Positions 9,620 to 62,555 are shown, counted from the stretch's first letter. The stretch is 64,000 nucleotides of DNA from Nitrospira sp. (GCA_030444405.1 JARFPM010000002.1:1-64000); one strand, 5' to 3'. Numbers and translations are program-made. The notes: generated by a model not told the origin, from the sequence alone.

Positions 9620-11005
9620 TCACGCCAACACCACATCCAATGCCTCTCGCACTTCCTGAATTCCGATCAGCTCCATACCGTCGATGGGATCAAGCTTCGT
9701 CAGATTTCGTTCAGGCAAAATGCATCGCTTGAACCCCATCTTGGCAGACTCGCGAATGCGCAATTCAGCCTGACTAATGGCACGCACCTCTCCTCCCAAG
9801 CCTACTTCCCCCATCAGTAACGTCCCCGGCTCGACAGGCACCTCTCGTAAACTCGACGTGACAGCTGCGACGATTCCCAAGTCAATCGCTGGTTCGTCGA
9901 TATGCATGCCTCCAACGACATTTACATACACATCCTGTCCGGATAGATGCATCCCTAGCCGTTTCTCCATCACTGCAAGCAACAGCGAGACTCGATTGAC
10001 CTCCACTCCGTTCGCCATTCGTTTGGGCATGGCGTAGGTGGTTGAGGACACCAACGCTTGCAGTTCAACGAGTATCGGCCTGGTACCTTCGAGACTCGAC
10101 ACAACCACAGATCCGGTAGTCCGTTCAGGACGTTCCGCCAGAAACAACTCTGAAGGATTGCTCACCTCTTCGAGCCCTGCATCCTTCATTTCGAATACCC
10201 CAATTTCGTTCGTCGATCCAAAACGATTCTTCACGGCGCGGAGAATCCGGTAGCTATGTCCTTTATCTCCTTCAAAGTATAAGACCGTATCGACGATATG
10301 TTCCAGCAGCCGTGGGCCGGCAATTGCCCCTTCTTTGGTCACATGCCCGATGATAAAGACCGGGACACCGGCTCGCTTCGCAAACCACATCAGCTGCCCG
10401 GCCACTTCCTGAACTTGACTGATGCTACCAGGAGCGGAGGTAATTTGTTCCGTATACACTGTCTGAATCGAATCGACTACGACGGCAGCCGGCCCAATTT
10501 CCTGGACTGCTTTCAGAATCTGCTCAAGGGAAGTTTCGGCCAAAATTAACAGATGCGGATGCTCGATGCCTAGCCGCTGCCCACGCATCTTGATCTGCCG
10601 AGGAGACTCTTCCCCGGAGACGTAGAGAACCGGTGCCTCCTTTGTCGCCAACCGTGGCAAGGCCTGCAAGAGCAGCGTCGTCTTCCCAATTCCAGGATCG
10701 CCGCCGATTAGGATGACCGCGCCGGGAATCACCCCACCGCCCAAGACGCGATCGAATTCACCAATACGGGTGAGCCGACGATCCTCTCCGATTACTTCAA
10801 TTTCCCCGATGGGCGTGGCCTTGGCCTGAGCCGTCTTTATCGCAACAGGTCGACCCTTCCCGGTAGCAGCTTGGCGCTCCTCTTTCATCGTATTCCAACC
10901 GCCGCAGTCAGGACAGCGGCCGAGCCACCGTGGCGCCTGATGCCCACAGGCTTGGCAAGAAAAGACGATCTTGGATTTCAAAAAGGGCCTCGTGAAGTAG
11001 GACAA
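9620..11005 (-). CDS. radA: DNA repair protein RadA
   Basis: RadA is a RecA-like ATPase that promotes branch migration during recombination repair. The N-terminal zinc finger uses Cys17, Cys20, Cys31 and Cys34. The Walker A motif GGDPGIGKTT is at residues 101-110 and the RadA-specific KNRFG at 259-263. The C-terminal Lon-like domain is present, and the total of 461 residues is normal. It is the first gene of a long minus-strand run. The divergent Rrf2 gene starts 172 bases away. Confidence 0.96.
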   Translation of the reverse strand: MSYFTRPFLKSKIVFSCQACGHQAPRWLGRCPDCGGWNTMKEERQAATGKGRPVAIKTAQAKATPIGEIEVIGEDRRLTRIGEFDRVLGGGVIPGAVILIGGDPGIGKTTLLLQALPRLATKEAPVLYVSGEESPRQIKMRGQRLGIEHPHLLILAETSLEQILKAVQEIGPAAVVVDSIQTVYTEQITSAPGSISQVQEVAGQLMWFAKRAGVPVFIIGHVTKEGAIAGPRLLEHIVDTVLYFEGDKGHSYRILRAVKNRFGSTNEIGVFEMKDAGLEEVSNPSELFLAERPERTTGSVVVSSLEGTRPILVELQALVSSTTYAMPKRMANGVEVNRVSLLLAVMEKRLGMHLSGQDVYVNVVGGMHIDEPAIDLGIVAAVTSSLREVPVEPGTLLMGEVGLGGEVRAISQAELRIRESAKMGFKRCILPERNLTKLDPIDGMELIGIQEVREALDVVLA

Positions 11006-11138
11006 TACTAAGTGCCTATCTTAATGAATCCACTAAGGGAATAAAAGCTAGAGAGGTGGATACATGTAGTGAGGGGATAGCAACAGTCAGCTGCCGACTA
11101 GTGCTCGCCTAGAAACTTTGCCCTTGACGAACCATCAC

Positions 11139-11166
11139 AGTTTATCCTAACTTTTGTTGATAAACT
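11139..11166. promoter_or_regulatory. Inverted repeat, candidate Rrf2 operator
   Basis: AGTTTATC at 11139-11146 is mirrored exactly by GATAAACT at 11159-11166 with a 12-base spacer, ending 11 bases before the regulator ATG. A possible -35 (TTGACG, 11124-11129) sits just upstream, so a bound dimer would cover the -10 region. Autoregulation is inferred from position. Confidence 0.5.
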
Positions 11167-11177
11167 CACTTTACTTT

Positions 11178-11612
11178 ATGAAACTCTCGAAGAAAAGTGA
11201 ATATGGCCTCCGAGCGTTGCTGGAGCTCACGCTGGTTCATGGAAAAACGACGCTCCAGCGTCACGACATTGCCGCTCGCCAGCACATCCCCCTTGAATTC
11301 TTGGAGCAGATTCTTCTCACACTCAAACGAGCTGGGCTCGTCTCCAGCCGACGCGGAGTGAACGGAGGATATGTCCTTATCAAACAGCCGAACGAGATCA
11401 CACTCGGTCAAGTCATACGAATACTCGATGGTCCGCTGGCGCCGATCGGCTGCGTCAGCAAGACGGCGTACCAGAAATGCAGCGACTGTCCCTACGCGAA
11501 TAAGACGCGGTGTCCTGTGCAACAAGTCATGGGCACGGTCCGTGATGCGATTGCTGGAATCCTCGATCATTATTCGCTTGCAGACTTTGCAGCAGGCTCT
11601 CCCAAAGGCTAA
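11178..11612 (+). CDS. Rrf2-family transcriptional regulator with Fe-S ligands
   Basis: The 144-residue protein has the Rrf2 winged-helix N terminus MKLSKKSEYGLRALLEL and the wing GLVSSRRGVNGGYVL. Four cysteines at 92, 101, 104 and 112 (GCVSKTAYQKCSDCP) stand where IscR and NsrR carry their cluster ligands, so a redox-, sulfur- or NO-sensing role is plausible. I chose the ATG at 11178 over one at 11154 because the protein then begins exactly as family members do. It is followed six bases later by a TauE/SafE transporter gene, which suggests control of sulfur-compound export. A perfect inverted repeat precedes it. Confidence 0.88.
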   Translation: MKLSKKSEYGLRALLELTLVHGKTTLQRHDIAARQHIPLEFLEQILLTLKRAGLVSSRRGVNGGYVLIKQPNEITLGQVIRILDGPLAPIGCVSKTAYQKCSDCPYANKTRCPVQQVMGTVRDAIAGILDHYSLADFAAGSPKG

Positions 11613-11618
11613 GCACTC

Positions 11619-12467
11619 ATGGACTCAGTCGTTCTTGTCCTCATTACGTTTGTCGCCGCCACGGTGAACGGGGCTTTAGGGTACGGCTTTTCTTCAATTA
11701 CCGTACCTGTGGCCTTGCTGTTCTACACCAATCGCATCTTGAACCCTGCCCTCGTACTCATCGAACTGGTCATCAACAGTTATGTTCTCTTCATTAACCG
11801 GAAGAGCATCCCCAACGTCTTCTGGCGCGTTGCACCTATTCTTGGCGGTCTGGCGGTCGGAGTCGGCATCGGCAGCTATCTTCTCTTTTTGGTGCAACCA
11901 GCATGGATCAAATTCGTCACCTATTTCTTTCTGTTACCCTTGATTCTTCTCCAGGCTGCGGGCATTCGGAAACCCATTCGCGCTGAACAAGCCATAGGTG
12001 TACCGTTTGGAATTGGGCTTGGCACGCTCTACTCCGTCACGACGATTTCCGGCCCCCCCTTGGCTCTCCTCTTTAACAATCAAGGCTATCCGAAACAAGA
12101 CTTCCGTGCTGCATTGGGGATCATTCGCCTGGCGGAGTCTTCACTCACAGCGATCGCTTACGGGTTCATCGGTTTCTACAGCGCCGGCAGCATGGAAATT
12201 ATCCCCTATATTGTTCCCAGCGTCATTGTTGGTATTCCACTCGGAACCTACCTCATCCGATTGATGGATCCTGAGACATTCCGGCGCATTTGCATGGCAT
12301 TCGACGGCCTAATAGTGGGCTTCGGTCTGTCTCGAGTGCTGGTAGAACTCAATCTTGCCACGCCCATAACAACCTACAGCATCTTGTCGATCGTGGTTCT
12401 CATAAACGGCTATCTGCTGTTTCGATTTTTTAGAGATCGCGGAGCTCCAGGGCATGTCCCTTCTTAA
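11619..12467 (+). CDS. TauE/SafE-family sulfite or sulfonate exporter-like permease
   Basis: The 282-residue protein has about eight hydrophobic segments. The first, FVAATVNGALGYGFSSITVP, carries the Gly-rich N-terminal motif of the TauE/SafE family, and the second half repeats it (GIGLGTLYSVTTISGPPLALLF). These inner-membrane proteins move sulfite, sulfoacetate or related anions. It is six bases downstream of the Rrf2 gene and surely shares its transcript. The substrate cannot be told from sequence. An association with a cysteine-containing Rrf2 regulator favours a sulfur compound. Confidence 0.85.
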   Translation: MDSVVLVLITFVAATVNGALGYGFSSITVPVALLFYTNRILNPALVLIELVINSYVLFINRKSIPNVFWRVAPILGGLAVGVGIGSYLLFLVQPAWIKFVTYFFLLPLILLQAAGIRKPIRAEQAIGVPFGIGLGTLYSVTTISGPPLALLFNNQGYPKQDFRAALGIIRLAESSLTAIAYGFIGFYSAGSMEIIPYIVPSVIVGIPLGTYLIRLMDPETFRRICMAFDGLIVGFGLSRVLVELNLATPITTYSILSIVVLINGYLLFRFFRDRGAPGHVPS

Positions 12468-52912: not shown

Positions 52913-53917
52913 ATGCGCAGATCCCTCATTCTTTTCATCTCTCTCTTCTTCATGATCTCATCAGCCTACGCTGATGGAGGCCATGATCATCATGCCATCC
53001 CCACACTGAAAAAGCAGGTGGGCTCTAAGATCACCTACGGAGAGAACACGGCGACCCTGACATTCGGTCCTATCGACCTTCCGACCGGCCACGGTGAGGG
53101 CGATATGGGCGATTCCATGCCGCGGTTCTACTTCCAGTTGCCGGAAGACAAGTATTTGGTCGGTTTCAAGTCGGCCCTTTCTACGGTTGACGGGAAGGAA
53201 TTGCCGAGAAACTACTTGCACCATATTTTAATGATCAATAACAGCCAGCCCAGCATATCCTGCCCTGGAGAGCCGCTCTTCTTTGGAGGGGCCGGACTGG
53301 AAATGGCTGAGACCCAATTTCCCGATGGGTACGGTGTTAAACTCGCCAAAGATGATAAGCTCATGACGGTCGTCGCCTTCTATCATGGTGCCCCTCCCAC
53401 GAAAAATGTCATCGCAACCTTCACGATGTATTTCGCGCCGAAGGCTAAGCCGATCAAAGCAATGAACATCTATCAGGTAGGGGTCAACATCGTCTGTTTC
53501 ACTAAGTTCGGAGATCGTCCTGCAGATCAGACTGACGAAGGAATTGAAATCCGACATGGGGTCCAAGTTCACACAGCACCGCTCAAGTTCGGAGCAGACG
53601 GTTGCGTCAAATTTGCCTATCCTCATGGTCATGATGAATTACTGATGATCGCGTTGGAAAACAAGACCAAGAAACAGACCCTCCTCAGAACTGTGCCGGA
53701 TGTTGAGCGAGATGGAACCCTTCGTGAATTCTTACCCCACCAAGTCTATAGAGACGGCCAAGGATTCCCCATCTCCAAGGAGGATGACTATGAAATGGTG
53801 ATGGTGCACCATCACCCTCTCCAAAAAACCGAACTCCAGCATGGCATGGGCAATTACTTGCTGTACATGACTCCGGGGGCCTGCCCAGAGCAAGGCAAGA
53901 CCGCCGCGGCTTATTGA
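52913..53917 (+). CDS. Secreted PHM-like copper type II monooxygenase candidate
   Basis: The 334-residue product has a signal peptide (LILFISLFFMISSAYA) and then the His-rich start DGGHDHH. Candidate copper ligands come in the order known from peptidylglycine alpha-hydroxylating monooxygenase: His103-His104 (YLHHILMINN), His158 (VVAFYHGAP), His238-x-His240 (YPHGHDE) and Met312 (LQHGMGNYLL). The PHM order is HH, H, HxH, M with similar spacing. It may hydroxylate a small molecule or peptide outside the cytoplasm. GGGAGG before ATG 52913 decides the start. Overall similarity to PHM is otherwise weak by eye, so this is an inference. Confidence 0.6.
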   Translation: MRRSLILFISLFFMISSAYADGGHDHHAIPTLKKQVGSKITYGENTATLTFGPIDLPTGHGEGDMGDSMPRFYFQLPEDKYLVGFKSALSTVDGKELPRNYLHHILMINNSQPSISCPGEPLFFGGAGLEMAETQFPDGYGVKLAKDDKLMTVVAFYHGAPPTKNVIATFTMYFAPKAKPIKAMNIYQVGVNIVCFTKFGDRPADQTDEGIEIRHGVQVHTAPLKFGADGCVKFAYPHGHDELLMIALENKTKKQTLLRTVPDVERDGTLREFLPHQVYRDGQGFPISKEDDYEMVMVHHHPLQKTELQHGMGNYLLYMTPGACPEQGKTAAAY

Positions 53918-54214: not shown

Positions 54215-57200
54215 ATGCCGCAGAGTGAGCCAGTCACCATCCTCCTCGTCAATGCAATCGCCGAAGAAATCAAACTGGTTACGCTCAACTTCCGACGATT
54301 CTTTCCAAACTGCCGAGTCGAAGCCGTCTACACCGTAGAGGAAGCGCTTCAGTGGGGGCATCGGGCATCGTGGCACCTCATTTTAGTCGATGAGGAGTTG
54401 CTCCCGCAGCTCGCCGCGCCTGTCTTCTCAGAACTGAAGCAGCTTGCACCCCATGCCACGCTCGTGCTGCAGACGGGTCATAGCGAGTCCACCGCCGCCT
54501 TGGATGCTCTTCAGGCCGGGGCGGATTTTGTCCTCTACAAGAAGTCGCCCAGTTTTCTCACCGAACTGGTGTTGTACACAAAAGGCGCGCTCGAAACAGG
54601 CGCCATCCGCATGACACTCAAACAGACGCAGGATCGCCACGCCCGTCTCATTGATATGCTCAGCGATGGATTATACGAACTCGATGCGGAAGGACGATTC
54701 ATGCATCTGAGCCCGCTCGCCGCTGAAATGCTGGGCTACACGCAGGACGAGTTAATCGGCACCCCCTACTCTGCCCTCGTGCCTCTGGATCAACAGGATC
54801 GCGCTCGTCATCGTTTCAACGACCGCAGAACAGGGACGCGAGCGGCTCAACGGACAGAAATCGATCTCATCCGCAAACCATCCACCGACAAACGAGTCCA
54901 CGCCCGAGTGAGGGTCGAGCTCAGCGCGAGAGGGCTGTACGATTTTAATCGCCGGTATGTCGGAACGCTGGGTTTGTTGCGCGATCTATCCCGACACCGC
55001 CAGCAAACGAAGACAATTGCTCAGCTGGAACATCAACTTCGTGAATCCGATCGACTTCTCGCCATGGCACAACGCTTTTCAACCTTATCGAAAAGTCTGC
55101 ATGCCCCCCATAACGCGATGTACGCCCAATCCCAACTCCTGCTCAAAACCATCCACGACGCCCACCTGATCGAACAAGTAGATTCATTGGCAACGTACGC
55201 CGCTCAAGCCGCCCATCTGGGGAAAGAACTCGTCCAGACCACGACGGAAATCGTCCTCCGCCGAGACACCATCAACGACATCATCGAGTCCGTCCTGGCC
55301 GCCGCTCAACCTCCCCTTGCGAACACCGATTGGATTGAACGGGCGTATGGACGGGATCTTCCGCCTTTCACCGGAAACCTCGACTCCATGATGAACCTCC
55401 TGCGCATTCTCCTCTCACATGCCCGACGCTATGTGGCCGCTGTAGGCCCCCTCCATCGCTTACGAGTCAGTACTAGGGCAATCACCCAAGACGGAGCCTC
55501 CCTAGACCAAGAGACATCCTTGCTTCCACAAACAACGGCCGCCGAATTCGAGATTCACATCCAAGAGACAAACCTCCTCTCCCCGGCTCAGGAACCGCCC
55601 TTGCAGACAACCGACGATCTCTTTGTGGCCTACGCGTTGATCAAGCGACTCGGAGGCCGTTGGGATTTTCTGGCCCCCGTCGGCGGCTTTCTGTCGATCA
55701 AGGTGTGGATTCCGGTGGAACAACCTGCTGTGCTGGACAGTCGCGCTGTGCCGGTGACCCCACTCGTTTCTTCGACAGGCGGCGCGGTCGAACAGACTAC
55801 CGAGTCGATTCTTCAGACTACGGCGCATCCCTTACCGACCGGACCCCTTCCCTCCGTCCAATCAACGGAGCCTTTGCCTGACCGCCGCAGACATATTCGG
55901 GCGACCGTCGACCTACCAGCGCGCGTTACAATCGGCGATGCGCCGCAGGAAGGTGTCATGATTGATCTGAGTCTCAGCGGAGCCACTTTGGAGGTCGAAG
56001 GTGTGCTCCCGTCATTTGAACAACAGCCCGTCTACCTGCTCCTTAAGACAGCCCTCAGCATCTTGGAACTGGATGCCACCGCGCATGACCGAGGAGAAAC
56101 TCCCCGACGGGCCGGCATCGAACGGCGAACCTCCCGTCTTGCACTCGAGTTCACCGCACTCAACGAGAGCCAGCAGAAGATCCTCGCGTCGTTTATTGAG
56201 GCCGCACGAGTACATGCATCTGCCATAACAGTCGAAGCTCAGTTTCCGCCGCTCGATAAGACAGGTGAATTTGTAGTGCGAGGCACAGACTACCGCGAGA
56301 CCGTGAGATTTCGAGTTGCGCTGCCGGTCCGCATTGAAACTTCTAAAGCAGCGGGCGGAAGTCTGTTGGGCATTGCCGTCAACTTCAGCCGAGGCGGTGT
56401 ATGCGTGCAAACAGAGCCGTTCCTGCCAATGATCGATGAGGTAGTCGTGCTTCATTTCTCCTCGATCGACGTCCATGATCAGTCCAGGGCACAGAAGCCG
56501 GAAGCGCCCGAAGTGATTCTGACCGGCCGCGTTGTGCATCTTGCTCCCGATCCCACCGTTCCATCCAGGCTAACACCGGGTCTATCACAGCCTGGACAGC
56601 GCATCGGCATCCGTTTTTCCCACCTGACGCCGTTCGCGGAACGGCAAGTCAACCGCCTGCTTGGGCAACACATCGGCTCCTCCAAAGACTTTGCGGATCC
56701 AGACGGCCGGCCCTTAATCATGAGCGACAGATGGGAATGCCGGAATATGCACGGCCAGGCTATTGCGGTGACGGCCGATCATGCTCGCCATCTAATCTCA
56801 TCCGACACGCCGATCATCATCGTCATTCCCGGATTCGGATCGACTCAAACCGACTACGTATCGCTCTCATTTTACCTGGCTGCCAACCATTTGCGCGTGC
56901 TTCGCTATGACCACTCGAACCATGTCGGCCAAAGCGATGGCAGTATGCTGCAGGTCACGTTGCGCAACATGCAGGCTGATCTCCAGAGCATCCTGGACTT
57001 TGTTCACACTACATGGACCACCGCTCCCGTAGCTCTCCTCGCCGAAGACATTGCGGCGCGAGTGGCGGTGAAAGTCATGGCTCGGAGCACATCGGCCGAT
57101 AAGCTTTTCTTGTTGAATCCTGTTCTCGACATAGAAACCGCTCTTTCTACCATCGATCGCCCCAACGTCATTGAAGCCTACCGGCAAGGTCATCGGCGGG

Positions 57201-58408
57201 GCATTGCTAATCTCTGGGGACTCAATGTCAACTTCGACCAGTTTGTCGGCGATGCGATCACGGGAGACTATGTCGACTTGGCCTCGTCAAGAGCTGACTT
57301 CGCTCAAGTGGCCACTCCGCCTGTCATCCTGGTCTCTGCCAGAAGAATCCGTCCCCTTGAACCCATGTTCGGCCCTCAATATCAGTCCCTCAACACCATG
57401 AGACTCGCTCCAACTGTTGTATCGCTGCCGGCCGACGTGTCCGGAGAATCCGGCGCCTACGACGAGCGCCGTACCGCCGCCTTCAAGACGATCTTGAAAC
57501 TGATCTCAACTTCCCTGATCGGCAATTCTTCCTCGGCTCAGGTCCGCGAACCGAAACTACGTGATGTTTCTCAGCAACGGCAGTTGGAGCATGAGCGTAT
57601 CCGCATTCGCTGCCATGTCTCACAGGCCACACGCATCGCCTTGTGGGGAGCTCACTTGGCCCATCTACCTCAACTCGAAACCTTGCCGGACTATTCTGCT
57701 TTGACGAGTGAACTGTATCGCCGGCTCCTTCCGCTTGAACCAGGCATGACCGTCCTCGATATCGGCTGCGGCCAAAGAAACTTCGTCCGTCTCATGCTGA
57801 CCAATCAAGCCTATCGGTCGGCGCATCAAAGAGGACGGATGGCCGTTCCTCTCCGCTATGTGGGGTTGGACCAGTCGCTTGAATCGCTTAGACTTGCAAA
57901 ACTGCAGACCCTTACATTCGCTAAAGAACTGCCCGGCACACTCACGGCTGCCGTCCCAACCGCCCAGTCCGTAGCGACAAGCTGGGTGCACACGGACTGG
58001 AATGTACCTCTTCCTTTTATCGATGGATCGATGGAGCGCATTCTCTGCCATCTTTCGCTCTCCTTTACTTCTTCTCCCCTTCATTGTCTAAGGCAATTGC
58101 TCAGAATCTTGCATCCGGATGGGACGGCCGTCTTGACCTGTTTTCAACCGCACACCGATCTCTCAACGCTGTTTCGCCGTTACGTGCGCGCAGCAGACCA
58201 TGATGAATTCGGCACTCCGGCCCAAATCGTCCTTCACTATCTCGGCCGCCTGCGCGAAGCCATTCGGCATGGTTTATTGCATAACTATGAACGCGATGAG
58301 TTCGCCGGTCTGCTGGCTCGTGCCGGTGCGGGCCCAATCCAGTTTTTCTCCGTTCTCGACAACCAACTTCTACTCGCCCTTGTTCGGAAGACCAAATCCG
58401 CTGGATGA
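54215..58408 (+). CDS. Giant signalling fusion: REC-PAS-kinase remnant-PilZ-PilZ-LuxD-like-methyltransferase
   Basis: The 1397-residue protein has seven parts. A receiver-like domain (1-125) keeps Asp59 and Lys109/110 but lacks the acidic pair. A PAS domain follows (138-260), then a remnant of dimerisation and ATPase regions (265-500, ending AYALIKRLGGRWDFL) without N, G1 or His motifs. PilZ 1 has R558xxxR562 and D584xSxxG589; PilZ 2 has R694xxxR698 and N723xSxxG728, so both can bind c-di-GMP. Residues 862-1100 resemble LuxD-type acyl thioesterase (VIPGFGSTQTDY, RYDHSNHVGQSDGS), but AEDIAARV replaces the serine elbow. A methyltransferase (1165-1395, VLDIGCGQ) ends the chain. It may couple c-di-GMP to methylation. 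No signal peptide is seen. Confidence 0.85.
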   Translation: MPQSEPVTILLVNAIAEEIKLVTLNFRRFFPNCRVEAVYTVEEALQWGHRASWHLILVDEELLPQLAAPVFSELKQLAPHATLVLQTGHSESTAALDALQAGADFVLYKKSPSFLTELVLYTKGALETGAIRMTLKQTQDRHARLIDMLSDGLYELDAEGRFMHLSPLAAEMLGYTQDELIGTPYSALVPLDQQDRARHRFNDRRTGTRAAQRTEIDLIRKPSTDKRVHARVRVELSARGLYDFNRRYVGTLGLLRDLSRHRQQTKTIAQLEHQLRESDRLLAMAQRFSTLSKSLHAPHNAMYAQSQLLLKTIHDAHLIEQVDSLATYAAQAAHLGKELVQTTTEIVLRRDTINDIIESVLAAAQPPLANTDWIERAYGRDLPPFTGNLDSMMNLLRILLSHARRYVAAVGPLHRLRVSTRAITQDGASLDQETSLLPQTTAAEFEIHIQETNLLSPAQEPPLQTTDDLFVAYALIKRLGGRWDFLAPVGGFLSIKVWIPVEQPAVLDSRAVPVTPLVSSTGGAVEQTTESILQTTAHPLPTGPLPSVQSTEPLPDRRRHIRATVDLPARVTIGDAPQEGVMIDLSLSGATLEVEGVLPSFEQQPVYLLLKTALSILELDATAHDRGETPRRAGIERRTSRLALEFTALNESQQKILASFIEAARVHASAITVEAQFPPLDKTGEFVVRGTDYRETVRFRVALPVRIETSKAAGGSLLGIAVNFSRGGVCVQTEPFLPMIDEVVVLHFSSIDVHDQSRAQKPEAPEVILTGRVVHLAPDPTVPSRLTPGLSQPGQRIGIRFSHLTPFAERQVNRLLGQHIGSSKDFADPDGRPLIMSDRWECRNMHGQAIAVTADHARHLISSDTPIIIVIPGFGSTQTDYVSLSFYLAANHLRVLRYDHSNHVGQSDGSMLQVTLRNMQADLQSILDFVHTTWTTAPVALLAEDIAARVAVKVMARSTSADKLFLLNPVLDIETALSTIDRPNVIEAYRQGHRRGIANLWGLNVNFDQFVGDAITGDYVDLASSRADFAQVATPPVILVSARRIRPLEPMFGPQYQSLNTMRLAPTVVSLPADVSGESGAYDERRTAAFKTILKLISTSLIGNSSSAQVREPKLRDVSQQRQLEHERIRIRCHVSQATRIALWGAHLAHLPQLETLPDYSALTSELYRRLLPLEPGMTVLDIGCGQRNFVRLMLTNQAYRSAHQRGRMAVPLRYVGLDQSLESLRLAKLQTLTFAKELPGTLTAAVPTAQSVATSWVHTDWNVPLPFIDGSMERILCHLSLSFTSSPLHCLRQLLRILHPDGTAVLTCFQPHTDLSTLFRRYVRAADHDEFGTPAQIVLHYLGRLREAIRHGLLHNYERDEFAGLLARAGAGPIQFFSVLDNQLLLALVRKTKSAG

Positions 58409-58508: not shown

Positions 58509-59780
58509 ATGACGGATCGCACGGCGCCGCCATCGGACCCTTGTCAATCAGGCACGGCATCACTGCAACGACTCACGCAGTTTGCACGAGATATGGGGCA
58601 CCCGACAAGCCTCCCAGTCATCGCGGAGCGCATTCTTTCCGGCCTCTCTGATGTATCCCGGCACTCTCAAGGGGTTCTTTATCTGCTTGAACGCGAACGT
58701 TTCTGCCCGGTGGTTTCACAAGCGGAGGGGTCTTCGATAGCAGCGTTTCCCGTCCTTCCCCTTGATCACCCCCTTGTTCAACAACTGGCTCACCACCAAG
58801 ACATCCTCGACTCGCCTGCGTTGACCGATTCCCTATGCAGGGGGTCCTTGGACAATGCCACGGAGGCCCAACTCGCCACTCATCCCGTCAACTTGGCCAT
58901 CCCGCTGCTGAATCGAGGAAGGCTGATCGCCTTCGTATTGCTGCAATCCCGGATAGAAACCACCGTCATTTCCTCCCATACCCTGGAACTCCTGGCTGCT
59001 ATGGCCCAGAATGCCGCCAACGCGCTTGACTCTTTCCTGCTTTATGAGGACCTCCGGCAGTCCCAAGCTCTCATGCGGCGAACTGATCGATTGCGTTCTC
59101 TGGAAACCATTGCCGGAGGTTTTGCTCATGAAATCAGAAATCCCTTGACGTCGATCAAAACCTTCATCCAGCTGGCTCCGGAACGTAAGAATGACAGTCA
59201 ATTTATCGGTGAATTCAGCCGAATTGTGCTCGATGACGTCAATCGGATTGAACGGTTGATTCAGGAGATTCTCGACTACGCTCGATACATGGAACCTCAA
59301 CTGACCGATGAGGATCCGAATGAAATCGTCTCGTCGTGCCTGTACTTCATCCAAGTAAAAGCCGACAGCCGAGGGATCAAGATTGAAAAAGATTTGGCGG
59401 TTGAGCTTCCTCGTGGCATGTTAGATCGGCAACAAATGAAACAGGTCCTTTTAAACCTGCTCCTGAATGCGATGGATGCCATCGGCGAAAAAACCGGAAC
59501 TATCCGAGTACGGACCACGAGGCTTCAAAAAGCGGACGGTGAGATAGGCACTCAGATAGAGATCGAAGATACGGGGCACGGCATCTCACCCGAAAACCTT
59601 GAACACATCTTTGACCCGTTTTTTACCACCAAACATGCGAGCGCCGTTAACGAAGGAACGGGGTTGGGACTGACCATCGCTCATCAGATCATTCAGGAGC
59701 ATCGAGGAGAGATTCAAGTTCAGAGTACGGAAGGGATCGGAACCACCTTCCGCATCAATCTTCCCTCCCACCGCTGTTAG
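58509..59780 (+). CDS. GAF-domain sensor histidine kinase (NtrB-like)
   Basis: The 423-residue kinase has an N-terminal GAF-like sensory region (about 20-175), a HisKA domain with His207 (FAHEIRNPLTSIK) and a complete HATPase domain: NLLLNAMDAIG (N box), EIEDTGHGIS (G1), FDPFFTTK (F box) and GTGLGLTIAHQI (G2). No transmembrane segment is present, so it senses in the cytoplasm. It starts 100 bases after the fusion gene and ends 16 bases before the NtrC-type regulator, its likely target. Confidence 0.93.
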   Translation: MTDRTAPPSDPCQSGTASLQRLTQFARDMGHPTSLPVIAERILSGLSDVSRHSQGVLYLLERERFCPVVSQAEGSSIAAFPVLPLDHPLVQQLAHHQDILDSPALTDSLCRGSLDNATEAQLATHPVNLAIPLLNRGRLIAFVLLQSRIETTVISSHTLELLAAMAQNAANALDSFLLYEDLRQSQALMRRTDRLRSLETIAGGFAHEIRNPLTSIKTFIQLAPERKNDSQFIGEFSRIVLDDVNRIERLIQEILDYARYMEPQLTDEDPNEIVSSCLYFIQVKADSRGIKIEKDLAVELPRGMLDRQQMKQVLLNLLLNAMDAIGEKTGTIRVRTTRLQKADGEIGTQIEIEDTGHGISPENLEHIFDPFFTTKHASAVNEGTGLGLTIAHQIIQEHRGEIQVQSTEGIGTTFRINLPSHRC

Positions 59781-59796: not shown

Positions 59797-61227
59797 GTGG
59801 AAAGCTCGGTTGTTAGAAAACGAGTTCTGTTGATCGATGATGATCCCCGAGTCCGTGCCTCTCTCAAGATGGTTCTCGAACCCATCTATGACATTCTCCA
59901 AGCTAGTGATGGACATGAGGGACTCGCTGTGTTTCGGAAGGATGAGCCCGACCTTATCCTCCTCGACGTCATTCTCCCGGGAACCGACGGCCTCGCAGTG
60001 CTCCAAATGCTCCGTATGGAGAGCAAGACCCCCCCTGTCATCATGCTCACAGGCACCAAATCCGTAAAAACAGCCGTCGACGCCATGAAGCTCGGCGCCG
60101 CTGACTATCTCTCAAAACCGTTCGATGTCGATGAGCTGCGTATCGTCATTGATCGAGTCCTGAACTCCTCCGAATTGGAGCGAGAGGTCAAGCAACTGCG
60201 GGCTCAGGTCGTTCAGCGCTATGCCTTCCATAATCTAATCGGGAAAAGCCAGGGCATGCAGGAGATCTACTCAAAAATCGAGCAGGTCGCCGACAGTCGT
60301 ACCACCGTGCTCATTACGGGAGAAAGTGGCACGGGAAAGGAATTGGTAGCGAGGGCCTTGCACTATAACAGTGCCCGGCGCGAACGCCCCTTCATCGCAC
60401 TGAACTGCGCAGCTTTGCCTGAAACGCTGATTGAAAGTGAACTCTTCGGCCACGAAAAGGGTTCGTTCACGGATGCGACAGCCCGACGCGTCGGACAGTT
60501 CGAGTTGGCGAACACCGGGACGCTGTTCCTGGATGAAATCGGCGACTTAAGTCCGGTTACACAAGCTAAGCTCCTGCGTGTCATCCAAGAGCGCGAATTT
60601 ACGAGAATCGGTGGAGTTCAGCCGATCAAGGTCGATGTCCGCATTGTGGCGGCGACGAACAAGAATCTTGACGACCTTGTTCGAAAGGGGCAGTTCCGAG
60701 AAGACCTCTACTACCGCATCAACGTCATTGCGCTCTTTCTCCCTCCACTCCGTGAACGGGGTGAGGACATTCCTCTCCTGGCCAAACATTTCCTCGAGAA
60801 ACGGCTGGAAGAGGAGCGACGCCCACGGATCGAATTCGAAAAAGACGCACTGGAGCTTCTAACTCGTTATTCTTGGCCGGGCAATGTGCGCGAGCTGGAA
60901 AACTTCGTCGAGCAAGCGTTCATCTGGTCCCAACATGCTGCGCAAATCACTTCGGAGCATTTGCCGACCCTGATCAAGAGCGATTCCCGCTCAACGTCGC
61001 TTCGAGACGATACCCTTGCCGGTCGTATGTCGCTTGAAAAAGCAGTGATGGAGTTTGAACGGGATATCATCCTTGATGCGTTGAAACGAACCAATTACGT
61101 ACAAACCCATGCTGCGAACCTACTCGGAATCAGCCGCAGGATGCTAAAATACCGAATGGACACCCTCCGCATCGGTCGTCCTGACAATTCTACTATCCAA
61201 GAGCCCGACTCACCCATGCAAGAATGA
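59797..61227 (+). CDS. NtrC-type sigma-54 response regulator
   Basis: The 476-residue protein has a complete receiver (Asp14-16, phospho-Asp57, Lys107), a AAA+ domain (Walker A GESGTGKE near residue 175) and a C-terminal Fis-type HTH ([16 protein letters not shown]). The sigma-54 contact loop is GSFTDA (222-227), differing from GAFTGA at two places. A GTG start with AAGGAG at proper distance was used. It should be phosphorylated by the kinase 16 bases upstream. Its targets are unknown. Confidence 0.93.
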
Positions 61228-61427: not shown

Positions 61428-62555
61428 ATGGACATGGCTTCTTGTCAGGCCGGAACACAACCGACAGTCCTCGTGATTGATGATGAAGCGGGGCCCCGCG
61501 ATGCCCTTAAAACGATACTTCGCACCTTCTGCAACGTTCGATCTGCAGAAAACGCCAAGACAGCTCTTGATGTCCTCAATCAGGACCCTATTGACCTGAT
61601 CACTCTCGATCAAAAGCTCCCAGATCGTCACGGACTTGATCTTCTCAGAGACATAAAGCACCGTCACCCCGACGTGGAGGTGATTATCGTCACGGGATAC
61701 GGGAGCCTGAAGTCCGCCATGGAGGGTATTCGCCACGGAGCCGCTGGCTATCTGCTTAAGCCTTTCAACGTGAATGAGCTGACCACCCTCATCCAGCAGA
61801 CCATGGACAAGAAGCGCCGACTCGACTTTCTCCGCCACTCTCTCCGAACACTACCGGACCTTTGGGGCTCAGAAGAAGAGAGCGCACGAGCGTGGAACAA
61901 GGTTAAGACTGGATATGCTTCCCTCTCCATCAATGCACAAGGCGCTGTCGCTTCGCAGCAAGACGATATGAGCCTGCTTCCACTCTTGTCCGATATTCTG
62001 GAGGCCACGGACCGTCAATTACTCAATCATTCGAGCCGAGTGAGTTTCTATGCCACGTTGATGGCCAGCCGACTCAACCTTACCGCCTCCGAGCAAAAAT
62101 CATTGGCCCTTGGAGCCTTCTTGCATGATTTAGGGAAAACGAGCCTCCCATCGTATAGGTTTTCAGAAGACCAGGTTCTTCCGTCTGGGGAAGCATCCCT
62201 CTGTAGGGAACACTCCGACAGAGGCGCACGGATGATTGCGCCGCTGGGTTTACCGATTGAGGTGGGGCAAATCGTCGCATCCCACCACGAGCGATGGGAT
62301 GGGCAAGGCTACCCTCGCGGACTCCGAGGCACGGATATTCCGTTTCTGGCTCGCATTGTCGGCATCGCCCAAACGTTTGATCATTTGACCGCCGACGTAC
62401 CTGGGCGCGTTGCCCTGCCGCTGGATGCCGCAACCCGCCAAATTTCGCTTCAATCTGAGACGCATTTCGACCCGCTGTTGCTGGAATTCTTCATTCAGGT
62501 CGTGAAAGACTCGCCCGTCTCGACTCCCGCCATGGACATCGCTCCCGCCGCTTGA
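61428..62555 (+). CDS. Response regulator with HD-GYP phosphodiesterase domain
   Basis: The 375-residue protein joins a receiver (phospho-Asp61, Lys111) to an HD-GYP domain. The HD pair is His233-Asp234 (FLHDLGKT), and HHERWDGQGYP (286-296) carries two further metal His and the GYP signature. It should hydrolyse c-di-GMP, controlled by phosphorylation. The linker from 128 to 180 is helical. With the double-PilZ protein encoded three genes earlier, it forms a local c-di-GMP circuit. A 200-base AT-rich spacer separates it from the NtrC-type gene, so it may have its own promoter. Confidence 0.93.
   Translation: MDMASCQAGTQPTVLVIDDEAGPRDALKTILRTFCNVRSAENAKTALDVLNQDPIDLITLDQKLPDRHGLDLLRDIKHRHPDVEVIIVTGYGSLKSAMEGIRHGAAGYLLKPFNVNELTTLIQQTMDKKRRLDFLRHSLRTLPDLWGSEEESARAWNKVKTGYASLSINAQGAVASQQDDMSLLPLLSDILEATDRQLLNHSSRVSFYATLMASRLNLTASEQKSLALGAFLHDLGKTSLPSYRFSEDQVLPSGEASLCREHSDRGARMIAPLGLPIEVGQIVASHHERWDGQGYPRGLRGTDIPFLARIVGIAQTFDHLTADVPGRVALPLDAATRQISLQSETHFDPLLLEFFIQVVKDSPVSTPAMDIAPAA

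Follow-up and report, generated by a model that had tools for sequence, protein, structure and literature searches.

A seven-part gene in Nitrospira

The window analysed here is a stretch of 64,000 nucleotides from Nitrospira sp. (GCA_030444405.1 JARFPM010000002.1:1-64000), and the gene of interest lies at positions 54215-58408 on the plus strand. It encodes a fusion of a receiver (REC), a PAS domain, a degenerate histidine kinase (pseudoHK), two PilZ domains, a LuxD-like hydrolase (pseudoLuxD) and a class I methyltransferase (MT), in that order. Judged by sequence comparison, the fusion is conserved in Nitrospira and descends from a smaller hydrolase-methyltransferase that appears to be active. 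The gene and its domains are listed below with the evidence for each; SAM stands for S-adenosylmethionine.

54215..58408, plus strand: fusion gene REC-PAS-pseudoHK-PilZ-PilZ-pseudoLuxD-MT, 1,397 codons (open frame and orthologues)
54215..54598, plus strand: receiver-like domain, residues 1-128 (PF00072, below cut-off; site counts)
54599..55012, plus strand: PAS domain, residues 129-266 (Pfam PF00989, 35.4 bits; TIGR00229)
55013..55729, plus strand: degenerate histidine kinase, residues 267-505 (hhalign with the neighbouring kinase; site counts; fold)
55880..56200, plus strand: PilZ 1, residues 556-662 (RRHIR 558-562, DLSLSG 584-589)
56294..56662, plus strand: PilZ 2, residues 694-816 (RETVR 694-698, NFSRGG 723-728)
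56726..57514, plus strand: LuxD-like alpha/beta hydrolase, residues 838-1100 (Pfam, 1THT alignment, fold match)
57572..58405, plus strand: class I SAM methyltransferase, residues 1120-1397 (Pfam; site counts)

The single uninterrupted frame of 1397 codons described in an earlier note on this DNA is open throughout, and full-length orthologues with the same domain order (45-78% identity) are found in 13 other genomes of the genus. These orthologues rule out that the fusion is an assembly chimera of two joined genes, the objection that the note had raised against itself. The seven domain identities and their order also hold: Pfam recognises most of them, with PilZ and methyltransferase both above the curated cut-offs, and hhalign and a structural model identify the kinase remnant. 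The AlphaFold2 (AF2) model of the fusion has a mean pLDDT of 76 and a pTM of 0.58. Forty seven-part proteins were aligned, all from Nitrospirota, and the residue counts out of 40 refer to this alignment. Spread by plasmids was considered and dismissed; the C-terminus of the protein in the window has no significant plasmid match, and an intact relative gave single-domain matches only.

Scanning a single genome of each species with two short peptide patterns yielded 77 loci with the hydrolase-methyltransferase region, under the titles Nitrospira, Nitrospirales and Nitrospirota and in one metagenome-assembled genome labelled Nitrospinota (L049); with patterns this short, distant relatives elsewhere could be missed. 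Class I proteins are 750-800 amino acids long, with a motif-less PilZ-like barrel followed by hydrolase and methyltransferase. Their front barrel matches PilZ at 95.4% in hhalign and has a PilZ-like fold in the model. Class II proteins have one to three PilZ domains, some also a receiver and PAS, before the same two enzyme domains, and class III is the seven-part form. In a tree of the hydrolase-methyltransferase region, built with a quick method and showing long branches, class III and two contig-truncated members constitute one clade nested among classes I and II. The locus L142 also holds a natural hydrolase-deletion form, Rec-PAS-PilZ-methyltransferase (9697-11928, minus strand).

The ancestral-type hydrolase-methyltransferase, with its degenerate PilZ-like front and intact Ser-Asp-His and SAM motifs, is paired in Nitrospirota with a seven-transmembrane (7TM)-GAF histidine kinase. 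In proteins of the Nitrospira-type clade the hydrolase triad is lost, and a receiver, PAS, a kinase core that is dead and a canonical PilZ pair are present; their neighbours are a soluble GAF kinase, an NtrC-type regulator and a response regulator of the HD-GYP type.

Residues lost and residues kept

The receiver reaches 24.9 bits against PF00072 (cut-off 30.2, E 2.4e-5) and retains the phospho-Asp D59, T87 and K109, with N13/A14 in place of the acidic pair. The PAS match to PF00989 lies above the curated Pfam cut-off. In the kinase region no HisKA or HATPase model of Pfam matched. The kinase remnant is nevertheless considered real because a profile-profile comparison (hhalign) with the intact neighbouring GAF kinase gives 96.1% probability and E 3.3e-9 over both HisKA and HATPase, and because in the AF2 model a helical hairpin precedes an alpha/beta domain. 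The phospho-His of the H-box is K293 in the fusion (codon 55091-55093), and the phospho-acceptor His is retained in just 4 of the 40 seven-part proteins. The ATP-binding boxes are also gone, with loss of the N-box Asn and the G-boxes.

The PilZ domains are found by Pfam in two stretches (62.1 bits, cut-off 22.5), and these regions are strand-rich in the AF2 model. Both have full RxxxR and (D/N)xSxxG motifs (RRHIR with DLSLSG, RETVR with NFSRGG), as the earlier note had stated, and this motif pair is the accepted signature of binding to cyclic di-GMP (c-di-GMP) (PMC11800159). Across the orthologues, R694, E695, R698, N723, R726 and G728 of PilZ 2 are present in 40/40 and S725 in 39/40. PilZ 1 is invariant at R557, R558, R562 and G589 (40/40) and varies at (D/N)584 (33/40) and S586 (32/40). 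The fusion is probably a c-di-GMP binder, as predicted from its intact PilZ pair.

The hydrolase scores 42.1 bits against PF02273 (Acyl_transf_2/LuxD-type, cut-off 20.3), 39.7 bits against NCBIfam LuxD (equivalog cut-off 420) and 34 bits against the NCBIfam acyl transferase PRK13604 (equivalog cut-off 529). Its best match among solved structures is the myristoyl-ACP (acyl carrier protein) thioesterase LuxD of V. harveyi (1THT, TM 0.76 by target). When aligned with 1THT, the nucleophile Ser falls on the class I Ser and on D945 (codon 57047-57049) in the fusion, and the LuxD Asp and His map to the corresponding acid and His of class I. The class I proteins tabulated residue by residue carry the full Ser-Asp-His triad, and class II retains it in some forms and has Asn or Asp at the Ser position in others. 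In class III the nucleophile is Asp in 40/40, and the matching acid and His are absent. Judged by residue, the hydrolase domain is catalytically dead. Its elbow, A-x-D-x-x-A-R-V-A-x-K, is frozen in class III even though it is non-catalytic.

Both the likeness to LuxD and the frozen elbow would suit a ligand sensor, in which the pseudo-hydrolase/methyltransferase would receive an acyl or methyl-ester molecule, produced by an intact paralogue or in other cells, with c-di-GMP as no more than a modulator. Genus g12 would fit this picture, with an intact class II copy beside its own large kinase and a dead class III copy at the syntenic locus, and so would a PilZ-ketoacyl synthase III gene found between methyltransferase and kinase genes at two loci. 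However, the genomes of genus g1 have one match each, the dead form without an intact copy, and the ketoacyl synthase gene is rare (2 of 20 genomes tested). Such a sensor is considered unlikely.

The methyltransferase is recognised by PF13489 (Methyltransf_23; 32.9 bits, cut-off 27) and PF08241 (26.0, cut-off 21.2). The tabulated proteins of class I, the short form, have the motif D-x-GCG-x-G; in the fusion motif I reads DIGCGQR, with the third Gly replaced by Arg, and the beta2 acid D1219 is retained. In class III the third Gly is present in 24/40 and lost in 16/40, the beta2 site is D in 19, E in 11 and G in 10, and one clade is without the GCG Cys. The variation of motif I and the beta2 acid makes it likely, though unproven, that methylation has been lost in the fusion. 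With the hydrolase triad gone in 40/40 and the SAM motif damaged, the regulated output is more likely to be binding or interaction than hydrolysis. The earlier note had proposed that c-di-GMP controls the C-terminal part. The link to c-di-GMP stands, given the conserved PilZ 2 residues and the HD-GYP response regulator encoded three genes further on, but control of catalysis is not supported in that form, given the lost triad and a SAM motif damaged here and in many relatives.

The same domain could instead be an active methyltransferase that is switched by c-di-GMP binding to PilZ, with the hydrolase as a dead substrate-binding domain. It is the most constrained domain (see below), G1184 and G1186 are retained in 39-40 of the 40 proteins, the fusion has kept D1219, and the form in L142 retains Rec-PAS-PilZ-methyltransferase with the hydrolase deleted. 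The variation at motif I (third Gly and GCG Cys) and at beta2 is, however, unexpected for a conserved enzyme, and this reading is likewise considered unlikely.

Median omega over 40 close pairs, with lineages shared between pairs, is 0.28 for the receiver, 0.22 for PAS, 0.29 for the kinase remnant, 0.32 for PilZ 1, 0.36 for PilZ 2, 0.28 for the hydrolase and 0.20 for the methyltransferase, the lowest of all domains. All domains are under purifying selection, and with medians of 0.20-0.36 in each of them the dead domains are maintained.

Partner genes, absence and decay

The genes that follow the fusion are:

58509..59780, plus strand: soluble GAF-HisKA-HATPase kinase with intact boxes, the partner gene (Pfam; synteny)
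59797..61227, plus strand: NtrC-type sigma-54 response regulator, REC-AAA+-Fis helix-turn-helix (Pfam)
61428..62555, plus strand: response regulator with an HD-GYP phosphodiesterase domain, HDLGK ... HHERWDGQGYP (Pfam HD_5, 122 bits)

They are followed by recN, and this order is kept genus-wide and in other genera; nearly all class III loci read have the order fusion, GAF kinase, NtrC, HD-GYP. In nearly all genomes read, the gene directly before the fusion codes for a strongly conserved, predicted secreted protein (52940-53917, plus strand; mean identity 81%) without a Pfam match. The AAA+ domain of NtrC (59797-61227, plus strand) has GSFTDA instead of the usual GAFTGA in the sigma-54 contact loop, as has that of N. 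moscoviensis. Scans for promoters and terminators gave counts near chance.

A kinase gene usually follows directly in classes I and II, and most of the kinases tested have a HisKA_7TM sensor region. In one genome (G319; L136 7308-12308) PilZ-PilZ-hydrolase with intact Ser-methyltransferase and a 7TM-GAF-histidine kinase form a single frame of 1,666 codons, with NtrC and HD-GYP next. The PilZ domain fused to ketoacyl synthase III (FabH-like) lies between the methyltransferase and 7TM kinase genes at L036 (7158-8756, minus strand) and L142 (7933-9519, minus strand).

The fusion has no match in at least 18 of the 39 same-genus genomes of the phylum sample. Among the fusion-less genomes checked, most have kept the NtrC orthologue (84-96% identity), the exceptions being G159 and G312. 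Of 12 fusion-less regions read, 11 still have the upstream neighbour together with GAF kinase, NtrC, HD-GYP and recN; in the twelfth (L145) no upstream neighbour was found. Four empty sites have the 3' end of the fusion gene left beside the upstream flank, a deletion scar, and the frames are broken in G001 and G002. In the complete genome of N. moscoviensis NSP M-1 (NZ_CP011801; L105 5313-10457) the fusion runs in frame into NtrC residues 177-476, and the GAF kinase gene and the NtrC receiver are gone. This is read here as decay, though an assembly join is possible. That the resulting frame of 1,714 codons is a functional NtrC fusion was set aside because the join deletes the start of AAA+ and the first Walker A Gly.

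These losses, together with the truncated NtrC and lost kinase gene of N. moscoviensis, would be expected of a functionless, decaying remnant. The fusion also evolves faster than every neighbour, with a mean identity of 57% compared with 69-88% for its three partners. On the other side, an open frame of about 1,400 codons is conserved over several genera with low median omega in every domain, and PilZ residues are invariant; a functionless remnant appears improbable.

A proposed platform and known systems

Because the catalytic residues of the lipid-enzyme and kinase parts are lost while both PilZ domains are intact, the reading put forward here, tentatively and with slightly less than even confidence, is that the fusion is a cytoplasmic pseudoenzyme platform. 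It would stem from a former lipid-signal-type enzyme and feed c-di-GMP status into the GAF kinase/NtrC/HD-GYP circuit. Binding of c-di-GMP to the PilZ pair would make the pseudo-hydrolase/methyltransferase and pseudo-kinase modules change conformation, and the pseudo-kinase might hetero-dimerise with the GAF kinase or dock onto it via its DHp-like (dimerisation and histidine phosphotransfer) helical hairpin. The platform could then tune phosphorylation of NtrC and the HD-GYP regulator, which would complete a feedback loop of c-di-GMP. In their pockets, the pseudo-hydrolase and the methyltransferase would probably bind, and not turn over, an acyl- or SAM/SAH-like ligand (SAH, S-adenosylhomocysteine).

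Several observations weigh against this platform. All 12 same-genus regions read that lack the fusion still have the GAF kinase, NtrC and HD-GYP genes, and the fusion is therefore not essential to the circuit. The AF2 model yields no reliable inter-domain arrangement. The methyltransferase retains GxG (G1184, G1186) in 39-40/40 and D or E at beta2 in 30/40, so it may bind SAM or even methylate. No sigma-54 site was found near the fusion gene, and across the window such sites are no more numerous than chance would give; autoregulation through sigma-54 was dismissed for the same reasons.

A wider and more speculative scenario, which is rather doubtful, is an undescribed cell-cell or envelope signalling system of Nitrospirota. 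A LuxD-type hydrolase-methyltransferase would make an acyl (methyl-ester-like) signal for the neighbouring 7TM-GAF kinase to read. In Nitrospira a duplicate of the synthase would have lost its activity and become a c-di-GMP-gated receptor platform, which combines the signal with second-messenger status before the sigma-54 regulator.

All domain families are known. The earlier note knew of no described protein with this order, and no description of the seven-part order or of the hydrolase-methyltransferase/7TM-kinase pairing was found in the open-access full-text literature. The fusion is a conserved Nitrospira protein and not a one-off. Little was found written on c-di-GMP signalling of nitrite-oxidising Nitrospira. 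The fusion provides a well-documented case of enzymes that have probably become regulators, with catalytic residues lost while c-di-GMP-binding PilZ residues are fixed, in PilZ-rich nitrite-oxidising bacteria. Together with their 7TM kinases, the intact hydrolase-methyltransferases make up a gene pair found across Nitrospirota, apparently undescribed and a candidate for signal production. N. moscoviensis is reported to have 33 PilZ-like genes (PMC11800159), and the source genome (G000) is in line with this, with 33 PilZ matches (32 over the cut-off) compared with 4 GGDEF domains.

Against PrsK (TIGR02916) and PrsR (TIGR02915) of the XrtA/PEP-CTERM system, the highest scores are 164.7 bits for the partner kinases and 443 bits for NtrC. 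These scores are under the curated cut-offs of 300 and 502.6, and AtoS/AtoC models score higher, so membership in that exosortase system was dismissed. The motif pair is common to the fusion and to c-di-GMP receptors with two PilZ domains (PF07238; YcgR-like and tandem-PilZ, PMC11800159), but in the fusion the pair is mid-chain among a receiver, PAS, a pseudokinase and two degenerate enzyme domains. LuxD (1THT, PF02273) is the best match of the hydrolase in fold and sequence, and the short Nitrospirota relatives retain its Ser, Asp and His. The fusion differs in having Asp945 for Ser, in having lost the Asp and His positions and in scoring far under the LuxD equivalog cut-off. The intact Nitrospirota module, an acyl hydrolase and methyltransferase by a 7TM membrane kinase, follows a logic similar to the PhcB/PhcS fatty-acid methyl-ester quorum sensing of Ralstonia, with its methyltransferase, histidine kinase and response regulator (PMC6637872), an analogy by description and not by sequence. 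The Nitrospira form differs from PhcB/PhcS in that it is without the catalytic residues and has a soluble GAF kinase.

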